Positions 28,489 through 61,030 of a stretch of DNA of 64,000 nucleotides are shown piece by piece. The DNA is from Paramacrobiotus metropolitanus (Eukaryota; Tardigrada; Eutardigrada; Parachela; Macrobiotidae). The notes beneath the pieces were generated by a model. The model had not been told where the DNA came from and did not search any database. It saw nothing but the letters and a program-made list of their open reading frames with translations. The stretch covers positions 62,001 through 126,000 of the forward strand of contig NW_026570247.1 of the NCBI RefSeq assembly GCF_019649055.1, read 5' to 3'. Each line of letters opens with the position of its first letter. Positions within the stretch are counted from its first letter, which is position 1. The position numbers and the translations under genes were made by a program.

Positions 28489-31400
28489 TCACACAGCGAA
28501 CACTTCGTTGATGCCGTAGATGGCCAGTTTGCTCAGCGTGGAAACATCAACGGCCCGTAAGTCAATATCCTCCCACGATCGCGGGCTGCCGTCGGCATGG
28601 AAGCCACTGAACCTGCAAAGCATGGGCGAATTTCACCTTACGAAGAAACGGATCAGCTGGCGATTTAAACTGATGTGCGGATGCACTGAATAAAGCCAAC
28701 GTACACGAGAAGATAGTTGCGAACGGGCTGCCACTCTTCCGGGTAGGCCAGAGTCACCACCCAACGCGCATGCACCGCCGCGACCTTTGCCAGCATCTCC
28801 GCGGTGACCGGCGGAAAGCAGTCGTTGACGGCGCACATGAAGCGACTGGCCATGTGCATTCGGCCGTCGCTGCATCGCAGAAGGAGCCGCGGAATGCGGA
28901 TCTCCAGCTTGTCGATGGCCAGTTCGTGCGACTCCCATGTCAGGTCCTTCATGAATCTTAGTTCGTGTTCGGGCAGGCAGCGCAGGACACCTTGAAAGTT
29001 TAAGTACCGGAACAACCGAAACGTTGGCAGGCCGAACAGTCTGGACACTTTCCAGTTGTACAGCGCCACGACTTCGCAGACGTGCTTGCACTCCGTTGGG
29101 ACATAGGTTGCCGGGTGCTTCAGCCGGTGCTCCCTCTGTCCCGCCATCGTTACGTCTCCGGAGACGATCTGGCCTTTGAAAACGATCAACGGCAGTCGGA
29201 TTTTCATGATTTTTAGCAACGGCCTAATAAATAGCCCGTACAACGGGGGAAAAACGTTGAGGAAGGTGAGGCTGATCGTGGTGGAATGGATCGAGCGGCA
29301 GAGCAGCGCCGCCAGTTTGAAGCAGTGGTTGCTGTGCTCTTGCAGCCGGTAGCAGTTTTCCATGTTGATGCTGATGTGCAGTGTCATCTGCGCACTGCTC
29401 AGCAGCAACTGCCACAGAGCGCACACCCTGCGGAGGAGCGACGGTGTTAGACAACAAACCGGACACAATCAGAACAACCACCGCGCTTTTTTTCCGACTT
29501 CAGTCATTGCCGGACGGTCTCGCCCGGTCAAATGGCGCACAAGAGTTCTTCCCACAAGTTGACTATGGATGCCCTCATTGCGCGAATTAGTTGAACCGAA
29601 GACAAAGCTTTTCGGCAGCTCGGCAGAACTAAACAAGCCCTCCAACAATGCTTACCGTTTGGCCGTCATTTGTGATTGCAGATCCAGATGTGCCAGGACG
29701 CCGCTCATGAGCCACGGCGTCAGCTGACCGATGTGGGCGGCCGACTGCATCGCATCGTTTTCCCAACCTGCAGAACGATCACAGCATCACAGCTAAACTG
29801 CGAATCATTAACTATTAATTGAATTATTCATTAACTTGTTGAACAATATTCGGAGGATAACTCTCGGCAAAACGTTAAGCAGTGTTCTTGTCAGTATTAG
29901 ATAACCGGCCGTTACTATTTGGGCACATTCTACACGCCCATATGCCCGACCTCCTCATAAGTCATAACACTGTGACGGGCCTGAACGCGATCACGTTGCA
30001 ATTGCACGTACGTTAGCGCCCTGAAACAACAGAACAACACTCTAACTCCAACCCGTTGCGGTTTAAGTTCTCCAGCCCGGAATCCCCGACAGCTTTATGA
30101 GGAAGTGCAAACATGTACAGACTGTAAGGGCTAAGTGCCGGTAATGTAGTACTCTTCGGCTTAGCAGCTGAAACAGAATGCATCTAGCACCTGTCGTGCA
30201 GCAGTGGGCGAAGCAGACCAAGGGCTAAGTGCCGGTAATGTAGTACTCTTCGGCTTAACAGCTGAAACAGAATGCATCTAGCACCTGTCGTGCAGCAGTG
30301 GGCGAAGCAGACCAAGGGCTAAGTGCCGGTAATGTAGTACTCTTCGGCTTAACAGCTGAAACAGAATGCATCTAGCACCTGTCGTGCAGCAGTGGGCGAA
30401 GCAGACCAGAAGTGAGCCTCCGACTGACAACGCCAGAAAGTTTCAGACCGCATGGGATCGTCCGGCGATCCCATGCGGTCTGCGACTAGCCGCAACCACC
30501 GAAACGAATAAAGCAGTGCTGCTGGCTGCCTTAAACCGGGACTCTGGCGCTTGGCTTAATGCTCTCCCTGCACCAAGTCTCCATACATTCTTACGTGACG
30601 ATGAAGATAGAATCAGCGTCGCACTACGGTTCGGCCTTCATGTTGTTGAGGAGCACAACTGTTTGAATTGTGCCAGTCACGTGGAAACTAATGGCCACCA
30701 TGGGCTGTCATGTTCAAGCAGCAAAGAACGATAGTCCCGGCATCTCGAGTTGAATAACGAAACGAAACGTGTCTGGGAAACCGCGGGTTTTCCTTGCCAG
30801 ATGGAGCCATCCGGATTGTCAGACAAGACTAATCAGCGCCCGGACGGCATGACGCTGATACCCGTGCGTGATGGGAAAGCGGTAGTCTGGGATGCTACCT
30901 GTTGGGACACCGTGGCTATGTCGCACGTGAAAGCCAGCTCGAAGAAATCAGGCAGCGTGGCACAGCTAGCAGAAGACTTTAAGCGGCGGAAGTACGGATT
31001 GGTAGAGGATATGGGATGCATGTTCTACCCTCTCGCAATAGAAACGTTTGGAACATTCTGGGCCTGCCTTTGCTGAGATGATACGCTTCGTCGGTGGGAA
31101 AATCCGCGATTTAACCGGCGAATCTCGATCCACTGTCTTCCTTAGACGACGTTTCAGTCTCGCTGTTGTTAGAGGAAATGCGGCCGCTGTCTTGGGTACA
31201 TTAAATGCACGATCGAAAGTTGGAAATGACAGTAATGATTTTGATTGTTTCTTCAATGTGTAAATTCGGAATCTTTAATAGTATCGACCAGCGCAGCCTT
31301 GCTGTTCTGTTAATAGGCTATTGCCCGAATAAAGGAAAAAAACAGAATGATAGCTGTTATACTCGTAGTACGAGTCCCCGTACTGGCCGTACTTATCATA

Positions 31401-34400: not shown

Positions 34401-35442
34401 CATCGCATGAGTCGCCGCATGATGGCATTTGCCATTCCCACGCTTGAGAGAACTACTGACGCACTGCCGCAGATACTCCTAAACACTGCGAAATGCTATG
34501 CTAGGATTCTGTTTGTATACCACCAGCAATAAAACAATTGCAGTTTTCTGTTTTTTTGCTGGCACCCACAGATTCGTTTTGCTCTTTGCATCTGTTTGCT
34601 TTTGAATGTAACTAACCGTCTGCGCAGGAGATATCCTCGCTGGCTCGAAACTGTCCGCAACCGATGGCCGGTAGAGTATCCCGACTGGCCAGATGCGTGT
34701 CCAGCACTTGCAACAGGGCCGGCGCCGTGATCCCCGGCGGGTCCCAACGCTGTTGGGCGACGTTGATGGTGATGAACATACAGCCATCCCGCTCGATGCG
34801 CAGATGAAAGCGACAACGGTCGGTCAGATCAAGCAACCCATCGTTGCTATCAAAAGCATTGCGGAAGTGTTTGATGATGCGGAATTTATCGGAGGCATCG
34901 CGCAGGGCACTGGATGCGCGGGCGAAGGGAATAAAGTATTTGGAATAGATAATCCCGCTACGGCGCTCCAGCAGGGGCGGATCACTGGGCGGCAAGCAAA
35001 AGGCCACTTGACCCATCTCCACAACTTCCACCGAAGCGGCTGTTGCTTGGACACTGCTGATGGGCGCCGCGGATTTGATGCAGAACATGTCACAGTTGTT
35101 GCAGCTAGTAAGGTGACCCAAGAGGACGGTCGCGCGGAAGCGCAACGGGCCGTCGTCTTCATCGCGCAGTGCCACGTACGCCGGGACGTTCTCGGAACCG
35201 TTCTCTTCGGGCTCCTCGTCATAGAACGGCAGCGGCCAGACGCTGCCCATGTGTATCCATCGCGCGTTGGCCTTTGTGGAGTCGAAATGGATGAAGGCGC
35301 GGTCGCCGTCCATATCCTGAATATATCCCAGCCACCACGAGCCATCGGGATTACGGACGACGACCGTGTTCTGGTAGCTCATCTGGTTGGCATCCACCAG
35401 CAACGGCCGATACCGCGGCATCGATCCCTGAGGCGAATCCAT
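28489..35442 (-). CDS. F-box gene A: Tudor-like plus F-box protein, 4 exons, 594 aa
   Basis: Hand-spliced exons are 34617-35442, 29656-29767, 28705-29427 and 28489-28612 (total 1785 nt; phases 1, 2, 2; stop TGA). Exon 1 starts MDSPQGSMPRYRPLL. Its WWLGYIQDMDGDRAFIHFD and RWIHMGSVWPLPF block (about residues 33-75) resembles Tudor/agenet SH3-like folds. A conserved second module follows (YVALRDEDDGPLRF, PPLLERRSG, DKFRIIKH, CRFHLRIERDGC). Exon 2 plus the first codons of exon 3 form an F-box, LTPWLMSGVLAHLDL then RVCALWQLLLSS. Exon 4 ends LSKLAIYGINEVFAV. F-boxes bind SKP1 and recruit targets to SCF ubiquitin ligases; the targets here are unknown. Donors are GTTAGT, GTAAGC and GTACGT; acceptors are CTGCAG, CCGCAG and TTTGCAG. 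Intron 1 is 4849 bp, filled with transposons, against 70-82 bp in copies C and B. The frame is complete with no lesion. Confidence 0.8.
30126..30408 (+). repeat. 94-bp unit repeated three times in tandem
   Basis: Units start at 30126, 30220 and 30314 with aagggctaagtgccggtaat and are nearly identical; only the first differs, by ttagcagc for ttaacagc. The array abuts the 5' side of the retroelement remnant, and its last unit runs into the element's open frame. Near-perfect identity suggests a recent expansion. Confidence 0.9.
30444..30482. repeat. 17-bp perfect inverted repeat, 5-base loop
   Basis: CAGACCGCATGGGATCG is followed by TCCGG and its exact reverse complement. It lies inside the first open frame of retroelement copy 1, directly after the 94-bp array. 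The aligned part of copies 2 and 3 shows no such hairpin. Confidence 0.9.
31264..32670. other. intron 1 of gene A, no element identified
   Basis: Open frames here (for example 31530-31814, 31681-31884 and 32121-32354, plus strand) show no recognisable domain and lack consistent composition. Confidence 0.4.
32671..32860 (+). repeat. solo left arm related to the TTAA foldback
   Basis: It begins GGGAAATGGCCCGGTAC after ctaa. It runs parallel to the left arm of the complete foldback at 32930, sharing cgcactccgaa and gcgcgcaacacccggtt. It has no matching right arm next to it, so it is a broken relative or a partial duplication. Confidence 0.6.
32930..33860. mobile_element. TTAA-flanked foldback (piggyBac-type target site) DNA element
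   Basis: The ends are GGGATTTAGCCCGGTAC on the left and the inverse, GTACCGGGCCAAAGCCC, on the right. Each is directly flanked by TTAA (32926-32929 and 33861-33864), the target duplication of piggyBac-type elements. Arms of about 325 bp (to 33255 and from 33536) are imperfect inverted repeats, for example gatctcctttaaat against atttaaaggagatc. The 280-bp loop contains repeat R1 (33298-33532). There is no transposase, so it is non-autonomous. It lies in intron 1 of gene A. Confidence 0.8.
33298..33532 (+). repeat. dispersed repeat R1, copy 2, in the loop of the foldback
   Basis: This copy matches 26858-27083 (minus) at both ends and in a central block (see that entry). It occupies almost exactly the loop of the TTAA foldback. 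The 26.9-kb copy has no foldback arms around it. Confidence 0.75.
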
Positions 35443-35730: not shown

Positions 35731-35752
35731 AGTACCGGGCCAAATCCCTTAA
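35731..35752 (+). repeat. solo right terminus of the TTAA foldback family
   Basis: The sequence gtaccgggccaaatccc followed by TTAA equals the right end of the 32930-33860 element. No left half is present in the preceding 100 bp. Confidence 0.6.
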
Positions 35753-40789: not shown

Positions 40790-41425
40790 TTAAGCGAATA
40801 TCTCGTTGATTCCGTAGATGGCTAGTTTGCTCAGTGTCGCCACATCCACTTGCCGCAGGTCCACCTCCTCCCACATTCGCGGACTGCCGTCGGCATTGAA
40901 GCCGCTGAACCTGGATGACAAAGGATAGCGAGAGCGGAATGTTTACTGGCACGAAATAAGTGCGGGCTGGTCAAGTCGGCTTACACTAAAAGATATTTGC
41001 GTTCCCGTTTGGTGCGCACATTAAGCGACTGGTCATGTGCATGCTGCCGTCGCTGCAGCGCAGCAGCAGTCGCCGAATGCCGATCCACATGTCGTCGATG
41101 GCCAGAGCGTGGGACTCTATGGAGAGGGGCTTCGTCAGCATCTGCTCGTGTGCCGGCAGACGACAGACTGTCCCATCGCACTCTAACCCATGAAACACTT
41201 CGCACGCTGGGAAGCCAAACAAACCGGCCACCTGCCAGTTGTACAGCGCCACGAATCGGCAGTGGTCGTCGTACCATGTGGGCACCATGGCCGCGGTGTG
41301 CTGCAGACGGTGCTGCTTTTGTCCCGTTAAGCTCTTGTGTTGGGAGAGGCTCTGGTCTTTGAAAACGAGCAACGGCAGCCTCATCTCCATGAATTCCAGC
41401 AAGAATGTCAAAAAGAATATTAGTC
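40790..41425 (-). pseudogene. F-box family fragment D (exon 3 part and exon 4)
   Basis: Exon 4 (40790-40910) is intact and ends LSKLAIYGINEIFA, stop TAA. A 74-bp intron (donor GTAAGC, acceptor TCCAG) separates it from an incomplete exon 3 (40985 to about 41425). That piece starts at FMEMRLPLLVFKDQ and so lacks the F-box end. It has lost about 120 nt near 41020 (after MCAPNG), which shifts the frame. It is nearly identical to copy E at 56240-56640, more than to A, B or C. It therefore comes from a recent duplication of E or E's parent, now in opposite orientation. Confidence 0.85.
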
Positions 41426-42034: not shown

Positions 42035-42970
42035 GCTAGCTCCCTCCGTCTACCTAGCATCGGCTTCCTTGCTGCGTCCGCTTATCTCCAAACTGTGTCC
42101 AACACAGCTCCAACCGATGTGACCACCGCAACAATGGCCTGGAAGGCATTGACCGGCTCTGATGATACGCCTGCCGAATCCATGCGTAGCATCCAAAAAG
42201 CATGGAATCATCCTGCCACTTTACGCGCCCTATCACACCTTTCTGCACTTCGTACATCCGCCATAGAAGTAGCGAATTTAAAGGCCATGTCAACACCTGA
42301 ATCCGGCTACTGGATCCACGCAATACCGGCGTCCTGTTTGGGTAACCTGCTGGAAAATATCGACTTTCAAACCAGCGTAGCACTGCGGCTACGCGCTCCA
42401 ATCGTAACTCTTCAATTCTGCAAATGCGGCGAATGGGTAGGCGAGTACGGTAGACATGGGACACGGTGTAAGCGATCTGCTGGACGGCTACCTTGACACG
42501 ATGGCATTAGCGGTGAATTTGCACGCGGTCTAACGACGGTGGTTTTTCTGCTAGGATGGAGCCAAAAGGATTGTCCATATCACATAGCAAAAGGCCGGAC
42601 GTTGTTACGCTGATCCCGTGGGAACGGGGCAAGCCACTGGCTATAGACGTGACCTGTGTGGACACTCTAGCCGACACTTACATTGGCCGAACCTCTCTCA
42701 ATGTCGGCGCGGCAGCAGAACTGGCCGAAACGAAAAAGCTTGCGAAACACGAGTGGCTTCAGTCGAGGTACAATTTCATTGCTGCAGCTTTTGAAATATA
42801 CGGAACCTGGGGAGACGGTGCCAAAAAGCTGGTTGATAAAATTTTAATTGGACACCTTATAGCAGCCACCACAGGGCAACCCCGCGCGAAAGAATTCTTC
42901 CGGTACACGGAAACTTTCATTGTAGCGCAGTCCGGACTATCTTTTGCACCGTTTCATAACGTTTTGTAGC
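42035..42970 (+). mobile_element. R2-type (RLE) non-LTR retrotransposon remnant, copy 2
   Basis: The frame at 42095-42496 contains SGYWIHAIPASCLG and a C-x-C-x9-H-x3-C finger (CKC to HGTRC). After a short break the frame at 42556-42969 continues with KRPDVVTLIP, ERGKPLAIDVTC and FEIYGTWGDGAKKLVDKI. This is the same finger-then-nuclease order as copy 1, but the sequence is clearly diverged and the aspartate context is PDV instead of PDG. The upstream 60 bp reads SVYLASASLL in another frame. The reverse transcriptase domain is missing. It lies 460 bp beyond the 3' end of F-box gene B and opposes it. Confidence 0.7.
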
Positions 42971-43430: not shown

Positions 43431-45771
43431 TCACACACGGAATACTGCGTTGATGCCGTAGATGGCCAGTTTGCTGAGGGAGGTCACATCCAGCAGCCGC
43501 AGATCCTCCGTGTCCCACGTGTGCAGTGTCCCGTCCGCGTGAAAACCGCTGAACCTGAAAGCAGAGAAATACGCACTTAGAAGCCAGCCTGACTTCCCGC
43601 GTTAGCATTCATTCATTTATGCATTCATTCGACCGAACGTATGCTGACAACCGTGGCAGGATGCCAGTACGTACTCACAGTAAAAGGCAGTAGCGAATGG
43701 AGTGCCAGTCATCCGGATAATCCAGTGTGCGCACCCAGCGCGCATGCACCGCCGTGGCCTTGGCCAGCATGTCGGCGCTAACCGGCGGGAAGTGCTCATT
43801 GACGGCGTGCATGAACCGCGCCGCCATGCGCTTGCGCCGGTCGCGCGGTAGCAACAGCCGCGGAATGGTGATCTGCAGTTTGTCAGTGTCCACGGCGTGC
43901 GACTCCCGCGTGAGGTGCGCCATCATCTCCCCCTCCTTGTCACGCAGGCGACGCTGGGGTGGATGCAGCGGATTCCCCGTCTCGAAGACATCGAACATGG
44001 TCCGACCGAAGAGCTCGCTGACGCTCCAATTGTGCAGCACCATCATATCGCAGAAGCCTTTATATAACAGTGGCTTCTCCGCTGCCGGATGTATGGGATC
44101 CTCCCCTTCTTTGAAGTTCCACGCCACATATGCCGGTGGGTCGCTCGTAATGTCTTTGAAGTGGAGCCGTGGCACTGGCGCGTCGATGTCCAAGTGCAGT
44201 GAGATAGCGTCCAGCCAGTTGAACAGGAAGAGGCGATTGGGCGGGAGAAACTGCAGCAGGGTCAGGCTTTGGGTGGCGGCGCTGATGGAGCGGTTCAGGA
44301 GGGTGACGGCTTTGAAGCAGTTGTCGCTGTCGGACTGCAGCTGCCAACAGCTTTCGAAGGATATCCTGATATGTTCCGCCATGCGGGCGTCGTTCAACAG
44401 CAGCTGCCACAGCGCGCACACCCTGTCGCAACAAGGACAATACTTAAGTACAGTCCATTTCCTAGTTCTTGGTTCAGAGGTGAAAACAAGTCATGTGGCT
44501 ACCCACCCTTCAAGAAAATGAGAATGCTTCGGCTCTGCGTATTCATGCAGCGGTAGTACAGCCAATACAGTGCGCATACAGCCACGTTCAGTACTCCTAC
44601 AGTAATAAGTCTAAACCGAAAATTAGGAAAAGGATTATATGAATATTTTTAAACAAAATATCACAAGGTCACTGATGCAGTATTGTAACTGTGATTAGCT
44701 CCAGACCGAGTTTATCGGATGCCACTGTTCGTGTTCAGCTCTCGTAGCCTTATCTCTTACCGCTTGCATCTCATTTGGGAGTGAATATCCAGATAGGACA
44801 AGATATCGCTGTGGAGCCACGGCGTCAGTTGGCCGATTCGTGCAGTCGTCAGGACTGTGTCACTCCCCGGATCTGAAGCCATCAATCACCGTTTCAATCT
44901 TTAATTCAGGAAGACAACACCAATTTCAGTATGTTCTACGGCCCGTTTACTAACCGTCTTCCTGTGGGCGGAGGTTACGGTATCGGACGGATGGCAGATT
45001 GTCCCGGTTGGCTAAATGTGTCCGCAGCACGCCCAACAACGCCCCCTCCGTCGCCTGCAACGTCTCCGCGTCCCGGGCGTAACCGGCGATTACAAACAGG
45101 CAGCCATCCTGCTGGACGCGCAGATGAAAACGACAACGGTCAAACGAATTAGACCAATCGGATGACCGCTTGACAGTGTCGCGCACATGCTTGATGATGC
45201 GGAACTTGTCGGAGACGTCGCTTAGAACACTCTCCGCCTCGGGAAAGGGGATAAAGTGCCGGGTGTAGAGCAGACCGCTGTCCCGCTCCAACAGCGGCGG
45301 ACCCGGCGGCGGCCACTCTCCCATCGTTTGACCGCGGTCCACCGTCTCGCGGCAAGTAACGGGTGTGTGGGCGTGGCCGGGAACATCCAGCCGCTGCGTC
45401 GTGACGCTAAATATGCGACAGGAGGCGTGACAACCATCGAGCTTGTACAGCATGGTGGCTTGTCGGAAGCGGAAGGGTCCGCCGTCTTCATCACGCAGTG
45501 CCACGTAGAAATCCTCGCGACTGCCGGAATATCCACCAGGCTCCCCGAAGGACGGCAGCGACCAGACACTGCCCATGGGGATCCACTGCGGTGCGACCGT
45601 TGTGGAGGCGAAGTGGATGAAGGCCTGGTCGCCGTTAATATCCTGAATGAATCCCAGCCACCACGTGTCGTCAGCGTTGCGGACGGCCACCGTGTTCTGG
45701 TAGCTCAACTGGTTGGCATCCACCAGGAACGGCCGATACTGCGGCATCGCTCCACACGGCGAACCTGCCAT
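43431..45771 (-). CDS. F-box gene B: Tudor-like plus F-box protein, 4 exons, 598 aa
   Basis: Hand-spliced exons are 44955-45771, 44761-44872, 43679-44422 and 43431-43554 (1797 nt; phases 1, 2, 2; stop TGA). Introns are 82, 338 and 124 bp with donors GTTAGT, GTAAGA and GTGAGT. Exon 2 (112 nt) and exon 4 (124 nt) have exactly the lengths of gene A. The N-terminus MAGSPCGAMPQYRPFL leads into the Tudor-like WWLGFIQDINGDQAFIHF block. The F-box is LTPWLHSDILSYLDI joined to RVCALWQLLLND. Exon 3 is seven codons longer than in A and is the most diverged part (LLQFLPPNRLFLFNWLDA), which suggests a different partner. Exon 4 ends LSKLAIYGINAVFRV. No lesion is seen; it is the best-preserved compact member. 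The ubiquitin-ligase adaptor role is inferred from the F-box. Confidence 0.85.
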
Positions 45772-45818: not shown

Positions 45819-46955
45819 GGCACAAGAGCAGACAACCCCGAGGGGACTTTAAGTCTGGTCGAAGAAAAAACAATTTTAAATGCAAAGTACAGAATTAAGA
45901 CGGATCCACAGATTTGAATAGATATTTAAAGGCAGGAATCGAGAATTCACGTTGCCAGCAAGAATTATGTCCAGTATCAGTGGAACTGTGGAAATAATAT
46001 CAACTAGACGAAATTTCAAAATTACCTTTCGCCGCTCACTCTTAAAGTGACTTTAAGGTAAAGTGCGATTCCGATTCAAAAACCTAACCAATAGATTTGA
46101 ATTGTAAAGTGCTCTTTAAGTACAGTAAAAGAAACCCTTTGAGCTCCGATAAGATAAAGAACCCCCAGTCGCAAACTGCAAGCTGGAAACACAAAGCTTT
46201 GTAAGTTAGCAGAGCACTTAATTAAGGCTTGCGGCGAACAAACACACTTGTACCCGGTTGTCTAGCCCCAGTGGTAAAATCACATCTGAACGAGCGGACA
46301 TAAATGTACCACCTGGGTCAAAATATCCGGATACACACCTGCAGACCTGCTATATCTCATGCAGCATTTTGCGGATACACGTCTACAAACTAGGCCAATA
46401 AACGCCCGGATACAAATTTACTAAAATGCTCTCTCTCGAACTTACCATCCGGCAACAAGTACATGATTCCATCGTCCGGTAAAACCGTCCGGGTGAGAAT
46501 CTTCATCAGCAAATCGAAAATTGGGCAGGCAAAATTTACGGCGGATGTTTCTAGAGCCGGCGGTTGCCGGCTTATAGGCGAAAGGTCACCTATGGCCAAT
46601 CAAAGCCTCGCGCAACTGAGCCAAGCGACTGAGCCCGATTCCTTCGCACGAACCACAACTGCGTTCTCCCGGTGGTGTGGCGCGCCGTACTATCGTCAAT
46701 GGCTAAAAGTTTTCCGGATTTCGGTGTTATTGTCTTCACCCGTCTCTGAGACGGACTTGCATTAGTCTACAAAGGCGTATGTAACGCCGTTGTCTTCACC
46801 GGTTGACCGTCAGCGACTTCCTCGACCAAACAGTGTATTACGCATTCGAGTGTGCCAGGTATCGTAGGCCTGGTCCTTCGGCGCGTCCACTGTATGCACA
46901 GCGGAGCTGACGCAGAACCCCACGCGAGACTGACAAGAATCACCGCGCATTAAAA
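45819..46955. other. no recognisable gene
   Basis: Frames at 46390-46599 (minus) and 46463-46765 (plus) overlap each other on opposite strands and show no family pattern. Upstream parts of the plus-strand F-box fragment may be hidden here, but I could not recognise them. Confidence 0.4.
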
Positions 46956-47250
46956 CTTAATAAACTGCATATTAGCATTCCGAGGCTGCTTCTGAAATGC
47001 ACCGCAGCCGGAACGAGCACCTTCCACACTCGTTGTGCACGCCCTGAACGACAACTTCCTCGGTCACCCAGGAGGCGCTTGTAACCGGCAGGAATGTGGA
47101 TTGGTGGATGCGATTTCATTTGGACGTTCACCATTAACAAGGTCACAGACGCTAGCAAAGGTCACGGCTGTTTCAGCGCGCTGGGGCTGCAACTGTGACC
47201 TACAAAGCCGATCCCGAGGATTGGGAGGCCCGTCGCAGTTAGGTTTCTTT
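46956..47250 (+). pseudogene. F-box family fragment H (end of exon 3)
   Basis: The plus strand reads LNKLHISIPRLLLKC, matching the IRIPRLLLRC block of exon 3. After a frame change it reads VHALNDNF. About 75 bp of unrelated sequence follows, then LAKVTAVSARW and, after another shift, PEDWEARRS. The segment stops exactly at a GTGAGT donor (47251), the same place and motif as in gene B. It is a worn relic, in the opposite orientation to its neighbours B and C. Confidence 0.55.
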
Positions 47251-47707: not shown

Positions 47708-49635
47708 TTACACAGCGAATACTTCGTTGATGCCGTAGATGGCCAGTTTGCTCAGTGTGGAAACATCAACGACCCGCAAGTCAATACCCTCGGACGTCCG
47801 CGGGCTGCCGTCGGCATTGAACCCGCTAAACCTACAAAGCATGGGCGAAATTCACTTCAATAAGAAACGGATTCGTGAGCAATTTGGGCTGATAGTTGTA
47901 TGCACAGAACATAGACAACGTACACGAGAAGATAGTTGCGAACGGTCCGCCACTCCTCCGGATAGCCCAGAGTCCGCACCCAGCGTGCATGCACCGCCGT
48001 GACCGTCCAACTCGTGTTCTGGCAGACTGCGCAGGACACCGTCGAACATCAGACCGCCCCGAAACAACTGGTACATGGCTAGGCCGAACAGCTCGGACAC
48101 TTTCCAGTGGTACAGCGCCAAGAATTTACAGCGGTGCTTGCACTCAGTGGGTACCCGGATGGCCGGGTGCTTCAGCCGGTGCTCCTTTGGTCCACCCATG
48201 TTCTCCGGCTGACAGACGATCTGGCCTTTGAAGACGATCATCGGAAGCCGGATCTCCATGAGTTCCAGCAGTTGTGCTATAAATACCCCATACATCGGAA
48301 GGAAGGCGCCGGAGAAGGTGAGGCTGACTGTGGAGGAATTGATTGAGCGGTTGAGCAGCACTGCCAGTGTGAAGCAGTTGCTGATGTCCGCCTGCAGCCG
48401 CCAGCAGGCGTCCACGTTGATGCTGATGTGTTCCGCCATGCTCGCACTGCTCAGCAGCAACTGCCACAAAGCGCACACCCTGCGCAACAATGACACGGTA
48501 AAGAACTGCCATATTCACATCCACTACAGCTGCACTCTGATTTGCCCTATATTGCGGTCATTTTAAGGTTACGGTTTCATATTTTAATCACCGGTCGTGT
48601 ACACCACCCCCAATGTGAAGCGCTACATACTGCTGATAGCATAACGTTCTTTTTGATACGTTCTTCACTGGCCTGTAGTCATGTGTCCACAGAGTTGACG
48701 ATGACCAGCGCTTACTGTTTGGCCTGCATCTGCGATTGCAGGTCCAGATTAGCTAAAAGTTCGCCCAAGAGCCAAGGTGCCAGCTGACCGATGCGGGTAC
48801 CCGGCTCGCCGGCTCGGGCTGCAGCGTATCACTTTCCAAATCTGCGCAACGATAAGTCGATTACTCGCGTAGACAAAACTAAATAACTAAATTCAGAGTC
48901 AGGTATCTAACCGTTTTCACCTGCACGAATTCGTGGCAAGCCGACGGCCGGTAGACTGGTCCGGCCAGCCAAATGTGTGGCGAGCACTTGCGACAGCGCC
49001 GCCGTCGTGATCTGCGCGATGCCCGCCTTGGCAATATTGATGGTGATGAACAGGCAGCCATCCCGCTCGATGCGCAGATGAAAGCGACAATCCCACAAAC
49101 TCAGCAGCTCCCAATCGCGTGAAAAGGCGTCGCGCACGTGCTTGATGATGCGGAATTTATCGGAGGCATCGCCCAGGATGCTCTGCGCCCCGGCACAGGA
49201 GACAAAGTGCTTCATGTACAGCGCACCGCTACGGCGCTCCAGCAACGGCGGATCACCCGGCGGCAAATTCACGACCACTTGCCCAAGATCCACCAATTCG
49301 GCGGGGGCGGGGTCTGTCCCGTGGGCGGTGAGCGTAAAGGATTTAATGTAGAAAATTTCAGGTTTCCGGCTAACCATAATGCAACCCAACAAGACGGCGG
49401 CGCGGAAGCGCAGCGAGCCGTCGTCTTCGTCGCGCAGTGCCACGTACGTTGTCGCAACCACGGTTCCCAGATTCGGTAAAGTAAAACGGCGGCAACCAGA
49501 CGCTGCCCATGTGGATCCATCGCGCGTTGGCCTTTTTGGAGTCGAAGTGGATGAAGGCGCGGTCGCCGTCCATGTCCTGGATATAGCCCAGCCACCACGA
49601 TTCATCGGGATTGCGGACTACGACCGTGTTCTGGA
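47708..49635 (-). pseudogene. F-box gene C: four-exon family member with several lesions
   Basis: All four exons are recognisable: 48912-49635, 48716-48841, 47924-48479 and 47708-47831. Introns are 70, 236 and 92 bp, with donors GTTAGA, GTAAGC and GTACGT. Lesions: the first 25 or so codons, with the usual start, are replaced by unrelated sequence before QNTVVVRNPD. A frameshift lies in exon 1 near 49450. A net gain of 14 nt in exon 2 (126 nt instead of 112) shifts the frame before the F-box. A 167-nt loss in exon 3 after LPEHEL removes the IRIPRLLLRC block and shifts the frame. Splice sites and exon 4 remain perfect, so loss of function is fairly recent. Transcripts may still exist. Confidence 0.85.
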
Positions 49636-49917
49636 AGTTCAGTACTACGGCGTACAAGGCTACGGAACTCTTGCGAAAAGCATGTGCGCAAATTCGGATA
49701 TCCGATTTTATGAAGCGATCGCAAAGTTTGTTTAGGTTATTTAAGCGCAGCGGCGAAGTTTGTGCTGATGTCATTCCCCTTTATGAGATTTCGGTCTTGA
49801 ATTAAAGAGAATCTGGCCCGTAGTCGGGATTTCTGGTGCTTCTATCCTCCTTGTTCTAACAGAATGTAAGGAAATATGGACCTGCTTATCCAGCTACGCT
49901 ACACTAGTATTGGGGTC

Positions 49918-50047
49918 GATCGAAAGCAAAACGGTCCGTCGTCTTCGTCACGCAGTGCCACGCAAGATGTGGGTGCCAGAATGTGGACCGTTCTCCCAGT
50001 CCAGTAGAAGGGAAGTAGCCAGACGCTGCCCATGTGGGCATTCCATC
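49918..50047 (-). pseudogene. F-box family fragment I (part of exon 1)
   Basis: The minus strand reads WNAHMGSVWLLPFYW and, further on, VALRDEDDGPFCFR, which is the end of the Tudor-like domain and the start of the second module of exon 1. The sequence between is slightly shorter than in gene A. Nothing before or after belongs to the family. It sits 280 bp upstream of pseudogene C. Confidence 0.7.
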
Positions 50048-50639: not shown

Positions 50640-52279
50640 CCCCCCAGTACCTAAGCACCTTTGAACGGCAGAATTTTTGAAAAGAGTCTGTCGCTGTATG
50701 CAGCAGAATGATGTGGCGTCCTGGTGCGCAGTGCTTGGTTTTTCTAGGTTCGCCCTGGCACTGCCCGAGTCGAATACCCTTCGGAAGGATTCTTTGAGAG
50801 TATTGTCAAAAAGAATTTGCATGCGATGGAAGAGGGTAATACAGACACCGACCGCACCAATAGTCGTTCAACTCGCAAAGCGCCACAGGGGAACAAGGGT
50901 AAGTGAACGGACGACACAGAGCAGCTTCGTAAACGCGTGGATCAGATGTTTCAAAATGGGCAGGCTAATGACATCGTGAAATTTCTTTCGTCCGAAGAAA
51001 CCATAGCGGAAATGAATGATGAAACCGTAGCTGCATTAAGAGATAAGCATCCCAAGCGGTCGGCCGATGGGATTTTTCCCACTCTTGCCGCAGTGCCACT
51101 AACAATACCGCGTGTCACTCCTGCTGAGTTACTGGACGCCATTTTTAATATGCCTGCTAGCTCTGCTGGGGGTTTTACGGGAATGAAGTCGCAGCACTTA
51201 AACGATATGCTGAACCGCCGGGACGACGTGGAAAGTGAGCTGTGTCTGGCAATGACGAGTCTAATGGACATTGTACTCAATGGTAAAGTTCCAACTGAAG
51301 TGCGACCGTTTCTGTTTGGAGCTAATTTAGTCCCATTAAGAAAACCTACGGGAGGAATCCGCCCCATCGCAGTTGGCGAGGTGTTACGCAGAGTAGCTTC
51401 GAAAATTGTCAGCGCATGAATGCGCAGGATGTGGCTTCCAGGTGACTCCTGATGGTCATCATGGATTGTCTTGCCTGTACAGCAAAGGTAGATGGAGCCA
51501 ATAAAGAATTGAACAGTATACTGGAACGAGGATGCGTAGCAGCGGGCTTTCCCTGCGAGTTGGAACCCGTAGGATTATCCAGGGACAACGGAAAGCGTCC
51601 AGACGGATTGACATTGGTGCCGGTTCGAGAGGGAAAGCAGCTTGTATGGGACGCCACCTTTGTGGACACGTTAGCACTATCTTAGCTTAAACGGTTAGCA
51701 AAAGCGCAGCGCAGCGGCTCATCAAGCAGAAATCCGTAAACGCGGCCTGGGCGAACAGTACTGGATTTATCCGTTTGCTGTAGAAACGCTCGGAGTGCTC
51801 GGCGAAAGAGCCAGAGGAATGGTCAGCTTCTTTGGTCGGAAAGTCAAGGAGAGATCCGGAGAAGGCAGATCCACGGCTTTTTTAAAACAGCGCATTAGCC
51901 TTGCAATTACCGTAATTATCGAATTTGAAGCCCCCCAAAATACAAGCCCCCCCCGTAATTAGAGCCCACCCCTAAGGTCATTTGAAAGTTATAAGCCCCC
52001 GCCCCCCGAAATAGAAGCCCATGGGCTTAATTAAATACCATAAAGCCCATATTAAAAAATGCCAAAAACCTGGTTTGAAAAATTGAAGCCCCCCCCTAAA
52101 TACAAGCCCATGCCCGTAATTGGAGCCCACCCCGTGGGTCATTAGAAATTTTTGTAACCCTGGGCTTCTAATTCGATAAATACGGTATTAAAGGTAATGC
52201 GGCTGCGGTTTTAGGAACTTTGCCGGGAAAGAATAAAGTTGTTGAAAATTGTGATTTTGGTTGTTTTTTTAATTCTTGA
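50640..52279 (+). mobile_element. R2-type (RLE) non-LTR retrotransposon remnant, copy 3, with RT part
   Basis: This is the most complete copy. A frame at 50677-50979 has NDVASWCAVLGFSRFALALP, the region before reverse transcriptase. The frame at 50937-51419 carries the N-terminal reverse transcriptase block: SAGGFTGMKSQHL, VRPFLFGANLVPL and GGIRPIAVGEVLRRVASK. At about 51420 most of reverse transcriptase and the finger are deleted. The frame at 51452-51685 resumes with [10 protein letters not shown] and [10 protein letters not shown], the restriction-like nuclease. A further stretch gives IYPFAVETLG and ends GNAAAVLGTLPG to CFFNS (stop 52277-52279). A 276-bp MITE (51910-52185) interrupts the last part. 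Frame changes at about 50940, 51420 and 51690 make it dead. Confidence 0.75.
51910..52185. mobile_element. C-rich TA-flanked MITE inside retroelement copy 3
   Basis: The ends are CCGTAATTATCGAATT on the left and, inverted on the right, CCGTATTTATCGAATT. The target TA is duplicated (51908-51909 and 52186-52187), as for Tc1/mariner-type elements. Removing it restores a frame SLAIIKGNAAAV that matches SLAVVRGNAAAV in copy 1, which proves the borders. The interior is built of gaagccc, taagccc and gagccc words with runs of six to eight C. It has no coding capacity. Confidence 0.85.
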
Positions 52280-54232: not shown

Positions 54233-56957
54233 ATGGCTTCTACACACTCAGATAAAAATATGAATTCGCCTTGGAGATTGATGCCGCAGTATCGGCCGTT
54301 GTTGACGGATGCCAACCAGATGAGTTACCAAAACACGGTGGTTGTCACAACTCTGACGACACGTGGTGGCTGGGATATATCCAGGATATCAACGGCGACC
54401 GCGCCTTCATCCACTTTGACTCTAAAAAGGCCAACGCTCGGTGGATCCATATGGGCAGCGTCTGGCCGCTGCCGTTGTATTGGGACGATTCGGTAGGCCG
54501 AGGCGGCCACAACGCCCCCGCGTACGTGGCATTCCGTGACGAAGACGGCGGCCCTTTGCGCTTTCGACCGGCCGTCCTACTGGGCTGGCTCATGGGCTGC
54601 CATACATGTGAAATGTTCTTTATCCGAACCACGGAGTCAACCGCCGCTGCTCCGGCCGAAGTGGTGCAGATCTGGCAAATGGCCGCGCAGCTGCCGCCGC
54701 GTGGTCCGCCCCTGCTGGAGCGCCGCAGCGGCACAAGCTATACCAAGCACTTTGTTCCCTGTGCTGGAGCGCAGACCGTCCTGCGCGATGCTTCCGACCC
54801 ATTCCGCCTCATCAAACATCTTCGCGATGCTCTGCGGCGCAGGCTGGAATTCTCGTCCCTGGCGTACTGCTGTCGCTTTCATTTGCGCATCGAACGGGAT
54901 GGCTGCATGTTTATTACGGAGACGATTGTCGACGCCGAGGTGACGCAATGGATAGCGACGGCGCTGTCGCAAGCGCTGGACACACATCTGGCCAGCCGGG
55001 TCAATCTACCGGCCATTGGGTTTGAGCGATTTCGTGGATGCGCGACCACCTCTTGCCAAGCCGATTAGTTTATTTCGCTAGCCATCGAAATGCAGCAGGC
55101 GGGTAGAACAAACAGTAAACTTGAATAATAAACTTAAATAACTTACTATCTAGGGATATATTGTGGGGTACGTCATAGAGGTCCCCTAGCTTTCCCCTCA
55201 TACATTACGGGAAATCTTGTGTTCCCCGCACAGCCGCCGCTTATATGATGCCGCGTAGAGTGGATCCTATAGTTTAGAACCGGTTTTAAACTGTAGTCAC
55301 CTTTAAACGGCACTATATGATTTCCCGTAATGTATGAAGGGTAAACAGAAGTCCCCTCTGAAGTACCAGTAGCGCATTCTGCACCTATCCTGTACTGCTC
55401 CAGTCATCCGACTGAAGCAGCACAGAAGGTTCTGAAGTACAGTTCGCCATTCTGAAATGGTATTGGTCAAGGTTAATTTGGGATTTTGGGGTCACCTTGG
55501 AATGAGCAACGACCAGTTGTTGAAAGGTTTACTGTCCAGTGGTGTTCTCCTGGTGCTTCTACCAGGGAAGGCTGCCGAAACAGCCTGCTAAACGTTAGAG
55601 TATTTCTAATTAACGAAGTGCTGAAATTCGAGACCAGATAAGTAGCAATTTAACTGTCAGAATATTATCGTTGCGAAGGCTGGGAAAGCGATGCCCTGCA
55701 GCCGGTGGTTGGCATTGGCCATCTACCGCCTTTCCTCCTGAGCGCCATTCTAGCCCACCTGGACCTGCACTCACAAATGACGGCCAAACGGTAAGCGCTG
55801 CGTTTGCAGCCTCCTTAATGCTGTTCAGGTGCCAAAGAGGTTCTTGTTGAGTCAATCAAGCGCGGCGAAACAAACGTCATTAATAGTTGGTTCTTCGAAG
55901 TTAATGCCGCGCGCGACTTAGTCTGACCATAAAACCCGTAAAGTGTTAAAGAACGAGAAAATATGGACTTGTTGAACCGTAGTTGTTGTCAAATGTCAAT
56001 ACAGTGATCTCACGGCACCGCTGTTCCACAGGGTGTGCGCTCTGTGGCAGTTGCTGCTGAGCAGTCCGCGCATGGCCGAACACGTCAGCATCAACATGGA
56101 AAGCTGCTGGCAGCTGCAGGCGGACAGCCACAACTGCTACAAACTGGCGGCGCTGCTCAGCCGCTCAATCAATTCCACCACCGTCAGCCTCACCTTCCTC
56201 CGCGTCTTCCCCACGGACCACCCGTCCTTCTTAACATTCTTGCTTGCCCTCATGGAGATTAGGCTGCCGTTGCTCGTCTTCAAAGACCAAAGCCTCTCCA
56301 CACGCAAGAGCTTAACGGGACAAAAGCAGCACCGTCTGCAGCACACCGCGGCCATGGTGCCCACATGGTACGACGACCACTGCCGATTCGTGGCGCTGTA
56401 CAACTGGCAGGTGGCCGGTTTGTTTGGCTTCCCCGCGTACGAAGTGTTTCATGGGTTGGAGTGCGATGGGGCAGTGTGTCGTCTGCCGGCACACGAGCAG
56501 ATGTTGATGAAGCCCCTCTCCAGAGAGTCCCACGCACTGGCCATCGACGACATGCGGATCGGCATTCGGCGACTGCTGCTGCGCTGCAGCGACGGCAGCA
56601 TGCACATGACCAGTCGCTTCATGTGCGCACTGAACGAGAGCGCCCCGCCTGTCACTGCCGAAATGCTCGCAAAGGTCACGGCGGTCTACGCGCGGTGGGT
56701 GCGCAGTCTGGCGTATCCGGAGGAATGGGAGACCATTCGCAAATATCTTTTAGTGTACGCCGACTTGACCAACGCGCATTCATTTCGTGCCAGTAAAAAT
56801 TCCGGTATCGGTATCCTTTGTCATCCTTTGCAGGTTCAGCGGCTTCAATGCCGACGGCAGTCCGCGAATGTGGGAGGATGTGGACTTGCGGCGAGTAGAT
56901 GTGGCAGCACTGAGCAAACTGGCCATCTACGGAATCAACGAGATATTCGCTTTGTGA
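54233..56957 (+). pseudogene. F-box gene E: complete four-exon copy with one frameshift and a lost donor
   Basis: The exons by homology are 54233 (or ATG 54260)-55063, 55679-55790, 56032-56754 and 56834-56957. Exons 2, 3 and 4 have exactly the lengths of gene A (112, 723 and 124 nt) and are open. In exon 1 one base is missing right after QNTVVV (about 54345); without it the frame would run on to NSDDTWWLGYIQDINGDRAFI. The donor after exon 1 is ATTAGT instead of GTTAGT, so a TAG follows in frame and splicing should fail. Intron 1 (615 bp) contains a MITE. Introns 2 and 3 are 241 and 79 bp. The F-box is LPPFLLSAILAHLDL plus RVCALWQLLLSS. It is in opposite orientation to A, B and C. The two exon 1 lesions would leave at most short products; a sequencing error could explain the frameshift but not the donor. 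Confidence 0.8.
55177..55359. mobile_element. small foldback MITE in intron 1 of gene E
   Basis: The arms are agaggtcccc...catacattacgggaaatc on the left and the inverse gatttcccgtaatgtatg...gtcccctct on the right, about 40 bp each, around about 100 bp. It has no coding capacity. It accounts for part of the length of intron 1 compared with the 70-82 bp of copies B and C. Confidence 0.75.
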
Positions 56958-58773
56958 GGCATAGAAAGACCTGTTCATCGCCTTCCAGTATATACATGCA
57001 GCGGTTATTAGAGTGCACCGTGAAAGCGCCTTGTTCTGGTGCGAGGTATTTTTGTTGCGAGCTGGTTTATGTTTTTTCAGCCTGACTTATTCCGGCATAT
57101 TGTTTCCTGCCATGTCTTCTTTTTCTGTTGTTTTCTTATCGTTGTTGGATCAGTTTAACGCCCTCAGTAATCTGGAATTTCCTGCATAAGATTGTGCGAG
57201 CTGGTTACCACGCAAGAAGTGGCCTTTCGTATCCGAGAAAGCTTTGCACGCCAGGAACACGATCGGCTTTCTCAAAATATTTGACCTTTGTTACAAATAT
57301 GTGTGCTTATTGAAATATGTGTGCTCGAGCCTCGAAGTATGATTCGCCATCCAATAGAAAAGCAGCATAATTATGTTTTACCCCTAGTTACCACTTTCCG
57401 GGCTGCTTAGACAGGGCGGAAAACTAGAACGTTTCATTGTGCCAGATTTGTAGTGTACTGTGTAGGCTATAGCGTCAGCTACGCGTCGCTTCACATATCC
57501 AGAATCGTGGTCGCCTTTGGTCTAAATTGCATAGGTACTTGTATTCGGTAATTCGCAGAAATGCAGCATCAGTGGTCAATCCCACAATTTACAAAATCAA
57601 ATGGTCTCTCTAATTTGGATGGAATGCTCATATTAGCGGTAAACATTCGGAATTCGGATTTTAATTAGTACTGCCGAATACCGATTCGTAGGAAGGTAAA
57701 ACACTGGTAGCTGTTGAACTGTTTGGAACACAAATCCAAGCAGTTCAACGCCGTTCAGTTCGGTATCCGCAGTTGACAATCCGGTCACGGCCAACGTCCA
57801 TTATGCGCGTAAGGTATATCTAGAAATACATTACTTCGTATTACGTACCATTTCACACGGCGCCGGCAAAACGCTCATGACCCGGACACATTGTGGTGTT
57901 TGATAAAAAACGACTAGACCAGGTCACCAGGCTACCCTAATTCCTATCTAGTGCAAAGCACATTAACACATTTTATGGTAACTCGAAAGCAAAATTGAAA
58001 GGCTTCCATTACGACAAGCGACAAGTCATACGGCAAAGCCCTGGCTTAGTTAACTATCATTTCGGTTTCGTCGCCAAAATCTAGACTTTGTGCGCTGTCG
58101 AGACGTTGTAAGGGGTCCGATGTGCGAACTGTAGTGTAGGGCAATCTAAAGAACAGGAATTCGCCATTTCTGGGTTGGTCACATGATAACGATGGCACTC
58201 TAGATCCACAGACATACTTCTGTAGGTGATTATTTAACAGTATTTGAGTTGAGGTTTTATGATAACAGTTCTTTACTGAGTTCTTTTTATTTTGACTGAG
58301 CGTATGCTGGCACTTGGTTGTGTGTTACTTTTAACGAGGATACGTGCCCGTAATGAATGATCCGCCACGGCTTAATAGCCGGATCCTCCAGTATCCTTTA
58401 TCAGAATCCCTTCAAATTTCTTGTCAGATAGAAGAGTTCGTTCAAATCGAGACCGTTGATTCACAACTGCAGTAAACTGCACTGCCATTCTTCGCATCCC
58501 AAATCCGTTACTCCTATGGAATTTCAGTAAGACTCAGTGGTACGTGGGATTGACGAATTCAGGTTCATATGCCGATTTAAAAGGAATACATAATTGTGAT
58601 TGCCTCTTGACCCTGCTCCATTCTACTAAGTACTCGAATTCAATCATAAGAAAATCAATAATAGACATGTCGAGACAGTTTACTTCGGTCGAGATTTTTG
58701 ACGGCGTCTACACGAATGGAAAAGCATCAAGTTTTCTAATTATTGTCTCGTTAGAGCTCCTTTACTGATCATT
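56958..58773. other. no recognisable gene
   Basis: This region follows the stop of gene E. I found no domain-bearing frame or clear repeat. Confidence 0.4.
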
Positions 58774-58842
58774 ATGGATTCGCCTTGGGGAGCGATGCCG
58801 CGGTATCGGCCGCTGTTAGCGACCGCCAACGAGATTAGGAGT
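58774..58842 (+). pseudogene. F-box family fragment F (first 20-odd codons of exon 1)
   Basis: The plus strand reads MDSPWGAMPRYRPLLATAN, the start of exon 1 as in genes A and E, and then loses similarity after about 60 bp. The fragment is too short to act, but it shows that a further copy began here. Confidence 0.75.
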
Positions 58843-59204
58843 TCTTCCATCAGGTAACTGATTTTCATCAAGGTCACCTCCGTCACTCCGTCTTCCGCCG
58901 CAGTGCAGGCGGAGGAAAGGAAATTCGCATTGTACTCGTAGCTTGAGGGTCGGTACAGTTTCGTACCTATCGCCTTTGAAACTTTAGGCCCGTGGGGCCC
59001 TTTGGCCCTGACTGTTTTCGACAAATTTCTAGAATTTGATTACGGTAAGTAACATAGCTCTTGTAATAATATTAACACCCCGAATAATGACATAGTATAT
59101 TATTATTCCGGATATTGCGAGGTACCTGTCAATTCCACATTGCGTTAATTTCACGTTAGGGCGTTACTTGTTAATTTTGTTTGGCATAGGGTGATGTTTC
59201 GTTG

Positions 59205-61030
59205 ACTGATACGGATTGTTCGCTGGGTGCGATGCCGCGCTATGAGAAACTCTTGACGGATCGCGAGACGATGAGCTGCCAGAATGCCTTCATACGCTTT
59301 GACTCCACAAAGGTCATTACGCGCTGGATACACATTTGGAGCGTCTGACTGTGCCCCTTCTCTGCGAGGACGACGGTCGTGTTCTCAATGCTGCAGTGCA
59401 GGTAACAAGAACGTCCTCGTTCGTATGACTTTCCGCAGTGAAGACGACAGAACCTTTTGCTTGCGACTGAAAGTTATCTTGGCTCTTAATACGTGTGGTA
59501 GAAACTTGCCTGCAATGTTCTGCACCCGAACCGACGCTTCCCTGACCAAGGCGCCCACCACGAGCTCGTCTTAAATTGGTCGACAGCGGCCAGGCTGTCA
59601 GTCAGTGACCCCCCACGGAATCGACGTGGCTGGAGCGCCGCAATTGTGTCTATGCAACACCCAACATGTCATGCCGTTGGCCAGCGCACAAGCGGCACGT
59701 TTGTGCGCGACCCTTCCGACTAACTCTGGATCATGCGGCATCTTGGCAGGTGATTTTGGGAATCATGGCAGCGATGTTAGAGTAGCACGGTAGCCCTGGT
59801 TTTTTTGTTATCATTAACCTGAAATCTGAATAACCATCGGCTGAAGCCCAGTATTAAACTTTCTACTGGGCAGTATTACAAGTTGTAGGAACGCAGCGCC
59901 AGCAGAAGCTCATGCGGATTCGCGACACAGCAAACGTTCGTTAGCAAACTACGAGGTATTATCGGTGTCCAGTCCGCTGATTTTCATAAACTTCTGGCTC
60001 TGCTTGATAATGATCTTTGGAGAAAACTTCGGTAAAACAACCGTCAAGTCCGTCATTACAAATTTACAGTAGTAATTACTTTACAAACATCGATGTATAA
60101 ATTCCTATGTACGACACTTTATTACGCTTATTTAACTCAAACGATGATATTATTTTTAGAAGGAAAAATAGCCCGGTACGTTAGTACAGTACTTATCTAA
60201 TTTGTTCACATTCAAATGTATACGATACAAATAATTAGATAACAATGTTTGGCAGTCCGCGAAAACTTCCGTCTTCGCAGACTGCCAAACATTATTTCTG
60301 CATTGTTTTTATCATCCATTGCCTTCATCGCCCTGCCTTTGTTTGGGTCACTCATCGCCGCCCCACTGCTTATCTCTGCAGCATCCGCATTTCCGGTGAC
60401 CTGATCTCGATGACCCACCCGCCACTGGTCGCATTAAGAAGTTTCTCCATATTGGAAGGCAAAGGATGGATCGGGGAAAGCGCTTCGTACCCAATACGTA
60501 CAACCTCGTCACCGCCAAGACCTGAATTCTGAATCGCCATGAAGACTCATGACCAGCGAATGTCCGCTGTTGCAGATTGCGCGATTGTTTCTCGCTTTTA
60601 TTGGCGCGTCAGAACGCTTACAGCCCCTCGGGACTCGTCAGCTACGTTTTCTATAATCCGGGTGGTGCAATTCCAGATGAGAGCTAGGCGGTAAGTGATA
60701 GATAATATTTCCCAGCGCTTGCATGATTGATGCTTAATCAAGTATTGAGAGCTGTTTGCGACAGGGTGTATGCATTGTGGCGGCAGTTGCTGCGTGTCGT
60801 CGACATGACGGAGGGGGTCAGCATCTCCTCTTGACAGCTGTTGGCAACTTAAATCCGACAGCGATTACTGCATCAAAGCGGCCACTCTTATGAGGCAGCA
60901 CAATGCTTCCCTTCCACCACCATCAGTGTGATCGGGCTGCGATTCCTTCCTCCCAAGCACGTAGGCTTTATATTTTACCGGCTGGACGCAGAAAAACCAC
61001 CAATTTGTCTGCCATCTCTTGCATTGAAAC
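59205..61030 (+). pseudogene. F-box gene G: badly decayed copy, closest to gene B
   Basis: Exon 1 relics: GAMPRYEKLLTDRETM at about 59229, then directly FIRFDSTK and RWIHIWSV (the WWLGYIQ part is deleted), stop at about 59348. MTFRSEDDRTFCLRL lies at 59425, the counterpart of VALRDEDDGPLRF. Exon 3 relic: after an acceptor (gacag, 60764) it reads RVYALWRQLLRVVDM, a stop, and in a second frame TTISVIGLRFLPPKHV to RLDA (about 60910-60990). That part matches gene B's TLLQFLPPNRLFLFNWLDA better than gene A. No exon 2 or exon 4 could be recognised. Several stops and deletions show it is long dead. Confidence 0.6.
60161..60292. repeat. TTAA-foldback-like terminus and a strong hairpin
   Basis: At 60161-60180 aggaaaaatagcccggtac resembles the left end of the foldback family (GGGATTTAGCCCGGTAC). 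At 60244-60292 aatgtttggcagtc and its exact inverse flank a loop that is itself partly paired (cgcgaa/ttcgca). Whether both belong to one element is unclear. Confidence 0.5.

Follow-up and report, generated by a model that had tools for sequence, protein, structure and literature searches.

We found that the stretch of the Paramacrobiotus metropolitanus genome analyzed here (64,000 nucleotides (nt), positions 62001-126000 of contig C27; hereafter the window) carries several members of what is probably a very large, lineage-expanded F-box family, whose proteins combine a tandem Tudor module of the FMRP/FXR type with an F-box and a C-terminal domain and probably act as adaptors of SKP1-CUL1-F-box (SCF) ubiquitin ligases. 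The product of an intact gene has about 600 residues: exon 1 encodes the tandem Tudor, exon 2 and the start of exon 3 the F-box, and exons 3-4 the C-terminal domain. By using tblastn with one of the window copies (copy B) and profile hidden Markov models of the four exons, this four-exon architecture could be recognized at eight places of the window. Two of these loci (A and B) are intact, one (E) has a single frame break, and five (I, C, H, F and G) are broken or fragmentary.

The occurrence of the family was then examined in the whole assembly (169.8 Mb in 533 contigs). In agreement with a tardigrade origin, a tardigrade CAHS protein matched this assembly, with 65 and 71% identity at the two best places. 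The best ∼150 candidates were scored in each search and, consequently, all family counts are lower bounds. At least 145 matches to exon 1 of copy A were identified (766 candidates), 141 of which were parsed, the four left aside being the weakest second pieces, together with at least 150 matches to exon 3 (682 candidates). A sister branch of the family (branch 2) provided at least 150 exon-1 matches (1,045 candidates; 150 of 151 were parsed) and at least 150 matches to its F-box exon (684 candidates). The two exon-1 sets did not overlap and could be merged into 139 and 148 loci, so that the module is present at no fewer than 287 loci in two branches. Thus, the local copies noticed in an initial annotation of the window are real, but the family is by no means restricted to this locality. 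For 85 of the 141 exon-1 matches of the window branch and 78 of the 150 of branch 2, the same strand carries an F-box exon no more than 3 kb downstream; proximity thus shows an F-box for 163 of 291 matches, but not for every one. Such an exon was on the opposite strand in 0 (window branch) and 1 (branch 2) cases; for 14 and 22 matches, respectively, one was located upstream in the same orientation, as expected from tandem neighbours. In the window branch, 114 of the 141 exon-1 matches could be paired with an exon 3 match in the same orientation at a distance of up to 9 kb (106 different exon 3 matches were involved), and 129 had no internal stop.

Matches that lacked a partner in the search lists were inspected individually. 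Nine exon-1 matches from seven loci (L047-L053) had no listed exon 3; exon 2 and/or exon 3 could be read downstream in seven of them, several being frame-broken, whereas of the remaining two, L052 had neither exon 2 nor exon 3 and the third L047 copy ran beyond the examined piece. On the other strand of L047, a copy with all four exons (6029-8199, minus strand) was absent from the genome-search list, which again indicates that the family counts are minimum values. Among six exon 3 matches without a listed exon 1 (L041-L046), exon 1 was present in three pieces in L041 and L043 and by its second half in L044; only exon 2 was found in L042, and no upstream exon in L045 and L046. When the Pfam F-box was searched in the genome, the best 150 of 1,080 candidates were scored and all of them were over the cut-off. 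Seven of these F-boxes that were outside the lists above, a small and hand-picked sample, were read upstream: the branch-2 tandem-Tudor exon was present in five (L089-L092 and L094; expectation value (E) 7e-21 to 6e-48 in a small set), L095 showed a weak trace (8e-4) and L093 none. On contig C24, two pairs of exon 3 matches (1242350/1281648 and 1258700/1297889) had near-equal scores and the same order at a distance of ∼39 kb, which suggests a large duplication.

The proteins of the FMRP/FXR family (FMR1, FXR1 and FXR2) are built of a tandem Tudor (Agenet), KH0, KH1, KH2 and an RGG region. The tardigrade genome has one ordinary FMR1 gene, at a separate locus on contig C5 (∼3433332-3433952; L054 418-2307, minus strand); its single 630-residue open frame extends from the Tudor to a G/R-rich tail and appears to be intronless there. 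The Pfam family Tudor_FRX1 had 20 matches in the genome at E ≤ 1, with this gene ranking first, and 14 of them were fetched for comparison with exon 1. These included clear members of the window branch (L059, L062, L064, L065 and L066; exon 1 E 3e-69 to 7e-33), an intermediate (L058, E 7e-15 versus exon 1), and distant relatives with a weak exon 1 match or none (L056, L057, L060, L061, L063, L067 and L068), some of which open the second branch. Two of the latter (L056 1408-1704 and L057 1408-1692) are short, incomplete exons which score above the Tudor_FRX1 cut-off and are matched by the branch-2 profile (E 2e-11); they perhaps represent a third FMRP-like Tudor group.

A profile of L058, L060, L061, L063 and L067 matched the FMR1 N-termini at 98.1% (E 1.3e-13), which is partly circular because these five loci were found through Tudor_FRX1. 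In a search of 177,635 PDB sequences with a branch-2 profile of 18 rows, six FXR1/FXR2/FMR1 sequences were matched over both Tudors (E 1.3e-6 to 0.0029), and the next match was at 0.12. In a control from which L060 and L067, both obtained via Tudor_FRX1, were removed (16 rows gathered by similarity to L067), the same six sequences took the lead (E 8.3e-6 to 0.023, next 0.12). Comparison of the branch-2 profile with the tardigrade's own FMR1 by hhalign resulted in 92.7% (E 4.2e-7), and a parallel test gave E 1e-7 versus 0.023 for the best of 30 shuffles. Judged by these sequence comparisons, the exon 1 module of branch 2 can be firmly predicted to be a tandem Tudor of the FMRP/FXR type. Two successive Tudor (Agenet) domains could be recognized in both branches, with strong matches in branch 2 and weaker ones in the window branch.

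For the window branch, the initial annotation had suggested an SH3-barrel/Tudor-like reader at the N-terminus. The Tudor type agrees with our results, but profile and PDB searches point to an FMRP/FXR-type tandem Tudor and not to a lone one. The exon 1 profile (alignment A1, 43 rows) had four PDB matches up to E 10, all of which were Tudors: FXR1 (0.012), FXR2 (0.022), the polycomb protein PCL (1.2) and FMR1 (1.4). When the window family (48 rows) was compared with four FMR1/FXR N-termini, three of which were not taken from a database, a match of 84.7% (E 6.7e-6, 185 columns) was obtained, the best of 30 shuffles being 0.062. The two branches are also linked to each other: in a small set, comparison of single window-branch loci (L059, L062 and L064-L066) with the branch-2 profile resulted in E values of 1.9e-6 to 5e-4, and the two profiles matched at E 3e-6 (4.8e-5 in a second comparison). 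In addition, the residue aligned with F32 of FMRP, numbered by our own count on an FMRP sequence not taken from a database, was aromatic in all 43 exon-1 members. It appears, less firmly, that the window branch also has the FMRP/FXR tandem Tudor, the evidence being weaker and coming partly via branch 2 and the non-database FMR1/FXR sequences. With regard to a possible aromatic cage, positions 38, 39, 55, 64 and 71 were aromatic in 36, 37, 43, 42 and 42 of the 43 members, respectively. A lone Tudor of the PHF1/agenet kind was considered and set aside, as the conspicuous result of the PDB searches is the tandem match to FXR proteins. The methyl-lysine readers PHF1, MTF2 and PHF19 did resemble the first Tudor of a low-confidence structure model in Foldseek matches; however, an hhalign comparison with a PHF1 Tudor sequence not taken from a database was no better than shuffles, and the tandem layout fits FMRP.

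With regard to the F-box, the initial annotation had proposed a domain split by an intron over the junction of exons 2 and 3. This was confirmed by scanning spliced stretches of 10 of the 43 models (three window copies and seven of the 40 genome models; the stretch of L013 had an incorrect first letter): Pfam F-box or F-box-like was matched at E ≤ 7.2e-5 in nine and above a Pfam gathering score in eight, copy B being just below the gathering scores. The proteins can thus be classified as F-box proteins by their Pfam domain; exon 3 alone had no F-box in Pfam. The phase-2 intron within the F-box holds for the window branch but not as a general family trait, as the sister-branch F-box was unsplit where it was read. 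Three downstream frames of the sister branch were scanned: L069 had 21.7 bits (cut-off 20.5), L072 was below the gathering score (E 0.014), and L070 had no Pfam match at all. At many sister-branch loci the F-box and the C-terminal part matched in one frame. Because L072 matched exon 3 (E 1.3e-7) and weakly exon 4 (0.037) of the window branch, more than the Tudor part appears to be common to both branches. The F-box intron is therefore a mark of one branch. The C-terminal domain of exon 3 did not match any Pfam family in more than one of 42 members (best E 0.0052). SKP1 had four matches in this genome.

It should be noted that several results weigh against the assignments made above. In the PDB, the window-branch profile matched FXR1 no better than at E 0.012; its comparison with the tardigrade's own FMR1 alone (E 0.088) was not above shuffles (best 0.018), and neither was the full module above 20 shuffles in an initial comparison with two FMR1 sequences. 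The Pfam matches of individual window-branch exon 1 members were weak and mixed over 18 families (Tudor_4 in six of 43, MBT in three, Agenet in two and Tudor_FRX1 in one), and the best single value belonged to LexA_DNA_bind in one member (E 7.9e-4). A genome search with KH_9 had the true FMR1 gene as its sole match and missed the tandem-Tudor F-box family. When KH0 only was compared, the window family had E 0.024 (best shuffle 0.12) and branch 2 had E 0.47 (best shuffle 0.044). Two AlphaFold models built from window paralogues alone were poor (mean pLDDT, the predicted local distance difference test, 36.7 and 30.6). All five Foldseek matches of the first model with E < 0.001 were FMRP N-terminal structures, and 242 columns were aligned to FMRP Tudor-Tudor-KH0, with TM-scores (template modelling scores) near 0.2; we took this result as a lead to be examined at the sequence level and do not regard it as proof. 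Finally, the F-box of copy A was weak (Pfam E 0.11).

The genomic structure of the window copies was examined by spliced models. Copy A is on the minus strand and consists of exon 1 (34617..35442; 826 nt, tandem-Tudor module, donor GTTAGT, phase 1), exon 2 (29656..29767; 112 nt, first half of the F-box), exon 3 (28705..29427; second half of the F-box and C-terminal domain) and exon 4 (28489..28612; 124 nt with the stop). Its exon 1 had initially been listed as a separate copy, D; as it lies on the same strand 4,849 nt upstream of exon 2 of A and has a fitting donor, we read A and D as one gene with a first intron of that length. Thus, all nine copies of the initial list (A, D, B, H, C, I, E, F and G) were recovered, but they amount to eight loci. 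Copy B, also on the minus strand, has exon 1 (44955..45771; tandem-Tudor module, 817 nt), exon 2 (44761..44872; 112 nt, first half of the F-box), exon 3 (43679..44422) and exon 4 (43431..43554; 124 nt with the stop). Copy E is on the plus strand. Its exon 1 (54260..55059) is read in two open frames, the break being near 54346-54352, and its end is uncertain: it was modelled at 55033 with a poor donor (GTGGAT) and an acceptor AAG, and the profile match extends to 55059. Exon 2 (55679..55790; 112 nt), exon 3 (56032..56754) and exon 4 (56834..56957; 124 nt) follow. The exon lengths noticed initially (112 nt for exon 2 and 124 nt for exon 4) and the intron phases 1, 2 and 2 were borne out in all three spliced copies, and the second intron indeed falls between K and VC of the F-box, inside an Arg codon. 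The fourth copy for which a 124-nt exon 4 had been noted, C, has an exon 3 fragment and exon 4 only.

Genome-wide, exon 2 had 112 nt in 27 of 41 models (L015 and L020 of the 43 were omitted); exon 4 was recognized in 18 of the 41, with a length of 124 nt in 12 cases, and the terminal exon of the other models is not trusted. Family members were chosen by similarity, and the model builder demanded GT/AG borders and these phases and slightly favoured 112 nt. The regular borders and exon-length counts are not independent tests because they were partly imposed in this way. The open frames and the codon-level constraint across the exon 2/3 junction (a ratio of non-synonymous to synonymous substitution rates (dN/dS) of 0.22) were not built into the models. 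The recurring exon structure is thus not a product of chance, and the constraint across the junction is the stronger sign of this. In a divergent subfamily on contig C24 (L041 and L043), exon 1 is divided into three exons with one break within the first Tudor, which could be an older gene structure.

Selection was analyzed in 40 of the 43 models (L015, L020 and WE were excluded) by using 146 pairs with dS < 1.2, which are not independent of each other. The lowest dN/dS values were observed for the F-box (0.22), exon 4 (0.23) and the first Tudor (0.24), compared with 0.37-0.56 elsewhere. The 25 closest pairs had values of 0.26-0.50, and in 30-codon windows of seven close pairs dN/dS was always below 1 (maximum 0.84). 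The least constrained stretches were outside the F-box and the first Tudor, namely residues 101-150 of exon 1 (0.50-0.67) and residues 501-540 (0.74-0.84, with few synonymous changes). At this latter place, the end of exon 3 (residues numbered on copy A), the synonymous difference in the seven close pairs was 0.11-0.13 versus ∼0.3 elsewhere; over all pairs the dip was mild, and it coincides with a higher GC content at third codon positions. In a tree of 41 models (without L015 and L020; the exon 3 alignment A2 omits L015), same-contig clades (C8 and C142) were mixed with pairs across contigs. Selection on the family is purifying, and the data show constraint and turnover and no positive selection. 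The initial proposal of expansion by birth and death agrees with the broken copies nearby and with the tree, whereas the idea that these are target-recognition genes in conflict is not supported so far.

Because an F-box is present, docking to SKP1 is predicted: the F-box would dock SKP1/CUL1 and thereby place the protein in an SCF ubiquitin ligase, and the tandem Tudor and the C-terminal domain may hold or choose the substrate. If the analogy with FMRP holds, methylated or RG-rich proteins that reside in RNA granules or chromatin are possible substrates. According to excerpts of a previous study (PMC5430443), the FMRP tandem Tudor binds methylated histones and pulls down DDX5, FUS, EWSR1 and LSM14A; F32L and/or Y96L affect the latter interaction, for which RG motifs are potentially responsible. 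These clients, together with the aromatic residue equivalent to F32 in all 43 members, led us to propose SCF adaptors that would choose methylated or RG-rich proteins. A more far-reaching scenario, which we put forward tentatively and hold to be rather improbable as a whole, is that a single fusion of an FMR1-type tandem Tudor with an F-box gene in this tardigrade lineage gave rise to the dominant F-box class of the genome, with several hundred adaptors that read methylated or RG-rich proteins and degrade RNA-granule, transposon or pathogen proteins, a system that would have no counterpart in other animals.

The size of the family may also be explained otherwise. Genomic drift, that is, neutral expansion and decay by birth and death with a minority of functional copies and no adaptive meaning of copy number, has in our view only slightly less than an even chance of being correct. 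Of the eight window loci, five are damaged or reduced to fragments and one more (E) contains a frame break; dN/dS does not exceed 1 in any 30-codon window, tandem and dispersed relatives are mixed in the tree, and excerpts of two papers (PMC7829749 and PMC3030570) explain plant F-box genes by drift. However, such neutrality does not easily agree with the high fractions of exon-1 matches that are paired with exon 3 (114/141) or free of a stop inside the match (129/141), and the dN/dS values of the 25 closest pairs (0.26-0.50) imply that many copies were constrained until recently. The view preferred in the initial annotation is that the adaptors diversify under conflict so as to recognize foreign or selfish proteins (of viruses or transposons) and mark them for degradation. 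Family size, clustering and broken copies would fit it, as would the position of the least constrained stretches outside the F-box and the first Tudor, and fast changes in F-box number by species-specific tandem duplication are described for Caenorhabditis in an excerpt of PMC8665587. We consider this view unlikely, as positive selection was not seen in the 30-codon windows of the seven close pairs (maximum 0.84), a result limited by the fairly diverged synonymous sites; an arms race was thus not shown by dN/dS.

A role other than degradation seems more doubtful still: the F-box could contact SKP1 within another complex, or the proteins could compete or cooperate with FMR1 in RNA granules, no ubiquitylation being involved. 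The FMRP type of the N-terminal module would suit such a role, and F-box proteins outside SCF complexes are known. In line with it, no KH family occurred among the Pfam matches of 43 exon-1 and 42 exon-3 members (exon 4, of ∼40 residues, was not scanned alone), so that direct RNA binding of the FMRP kind is not evident. On the other hand, the F-box is the most constrained part of the protein (dN/dS 0.22), which fits SKP1 docking in either case.

Compared with FMRP/FXR proteins, the tardigrade family has two Tudors in identical order and of comparable length, with an aromatic residue aligned with F32 in 43 of 43 members, and differs by its F-box, its C-terminal domain and the lack of KH matches in exons 1 and 3; the KH1, KH2 and RGG region of FMR1/FXR proper were not found. 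The C-terminal domains of Caenorhabditis F-box families are FTH and FBA_2, to which exon 3 of the tardigrade family was not matched, and these families are not known to have a Tudor module. Similarities to them include hundreds of F-box genes, tandem duplication and divergence of gene structure, with 39 to 1,426 F-box homologues per Caenorhabditis species (excerpt of PMC8665587). Moreover, the F-box A2 genes of Caenorhabditis captured a helix-turn-helix domain of Tc1/Mariner and show signatures of purifying selection (excerpt of PMC12062965). An F-box class with an additional module and signs of purifying selection is thus found in both cases, but the A2 module comes from a transposase, whereas the tardigrade module is of a Tudor type that belongs to an RNA-binding protein of the host. 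No description of a tandem-Tudor F-box family or of a tardigrade F-box expansion was found in open-licence PubMed Central (subscription literature was outside the search), and the words 'ubiquitin' and 'Skp1' are absent from the main text of the 2017 Hypsibius/Ramazzottius genome paper (PMC5531438). Large F-box expansions are already known from nematodes and plants, but in the tardigrade the substrate side is equipped with a Fragile X-type tandem Tudor. The family would extend our view of the multiplication of ubiquitin-ligase adaptors by one more animal lineage and by a new recognition module, and FMRP-type tandem Tudors would become available in hundreds of natural versions.

The remaining copies of the window are in various states of decay. 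Copy C (40793..41417, minus strand) is limited to a truncated exon 3 and exon 4, and its DNA is 90-94% identical to the matching parts of E. In copy I (47711..49645, minus strand) all four exons are recognizable, with the frame broken in exons 1 and 3. Copies H (49911..50039, minus strand) and F (58774..58836, plus strand; weak, E 0.003) are fragments of exon 1, and copy G (59217..61134, plus strand) is degraded to pieces of exon 1 (59217-59559) and exon 3 (60772-61134) with E 0.0002 to 0.05. An exon 3 relic at 46929..47006 (plus strand, E 1e-4) had been missed in the initial annotation. Besides the family, three open frames (30735-31076, 42517-42969 and 51446-51962) share by eye a motif like 'RPDG-TL-P' and possibly belong to one dispersed element; a retroelement reading of the recurrent open frames was dropped, as Pfam gave no match in the stretches scanned. 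Within the first intron of copy A, positions 30126-30408 have a period of 94 nt, with three near-identical copies (99%).

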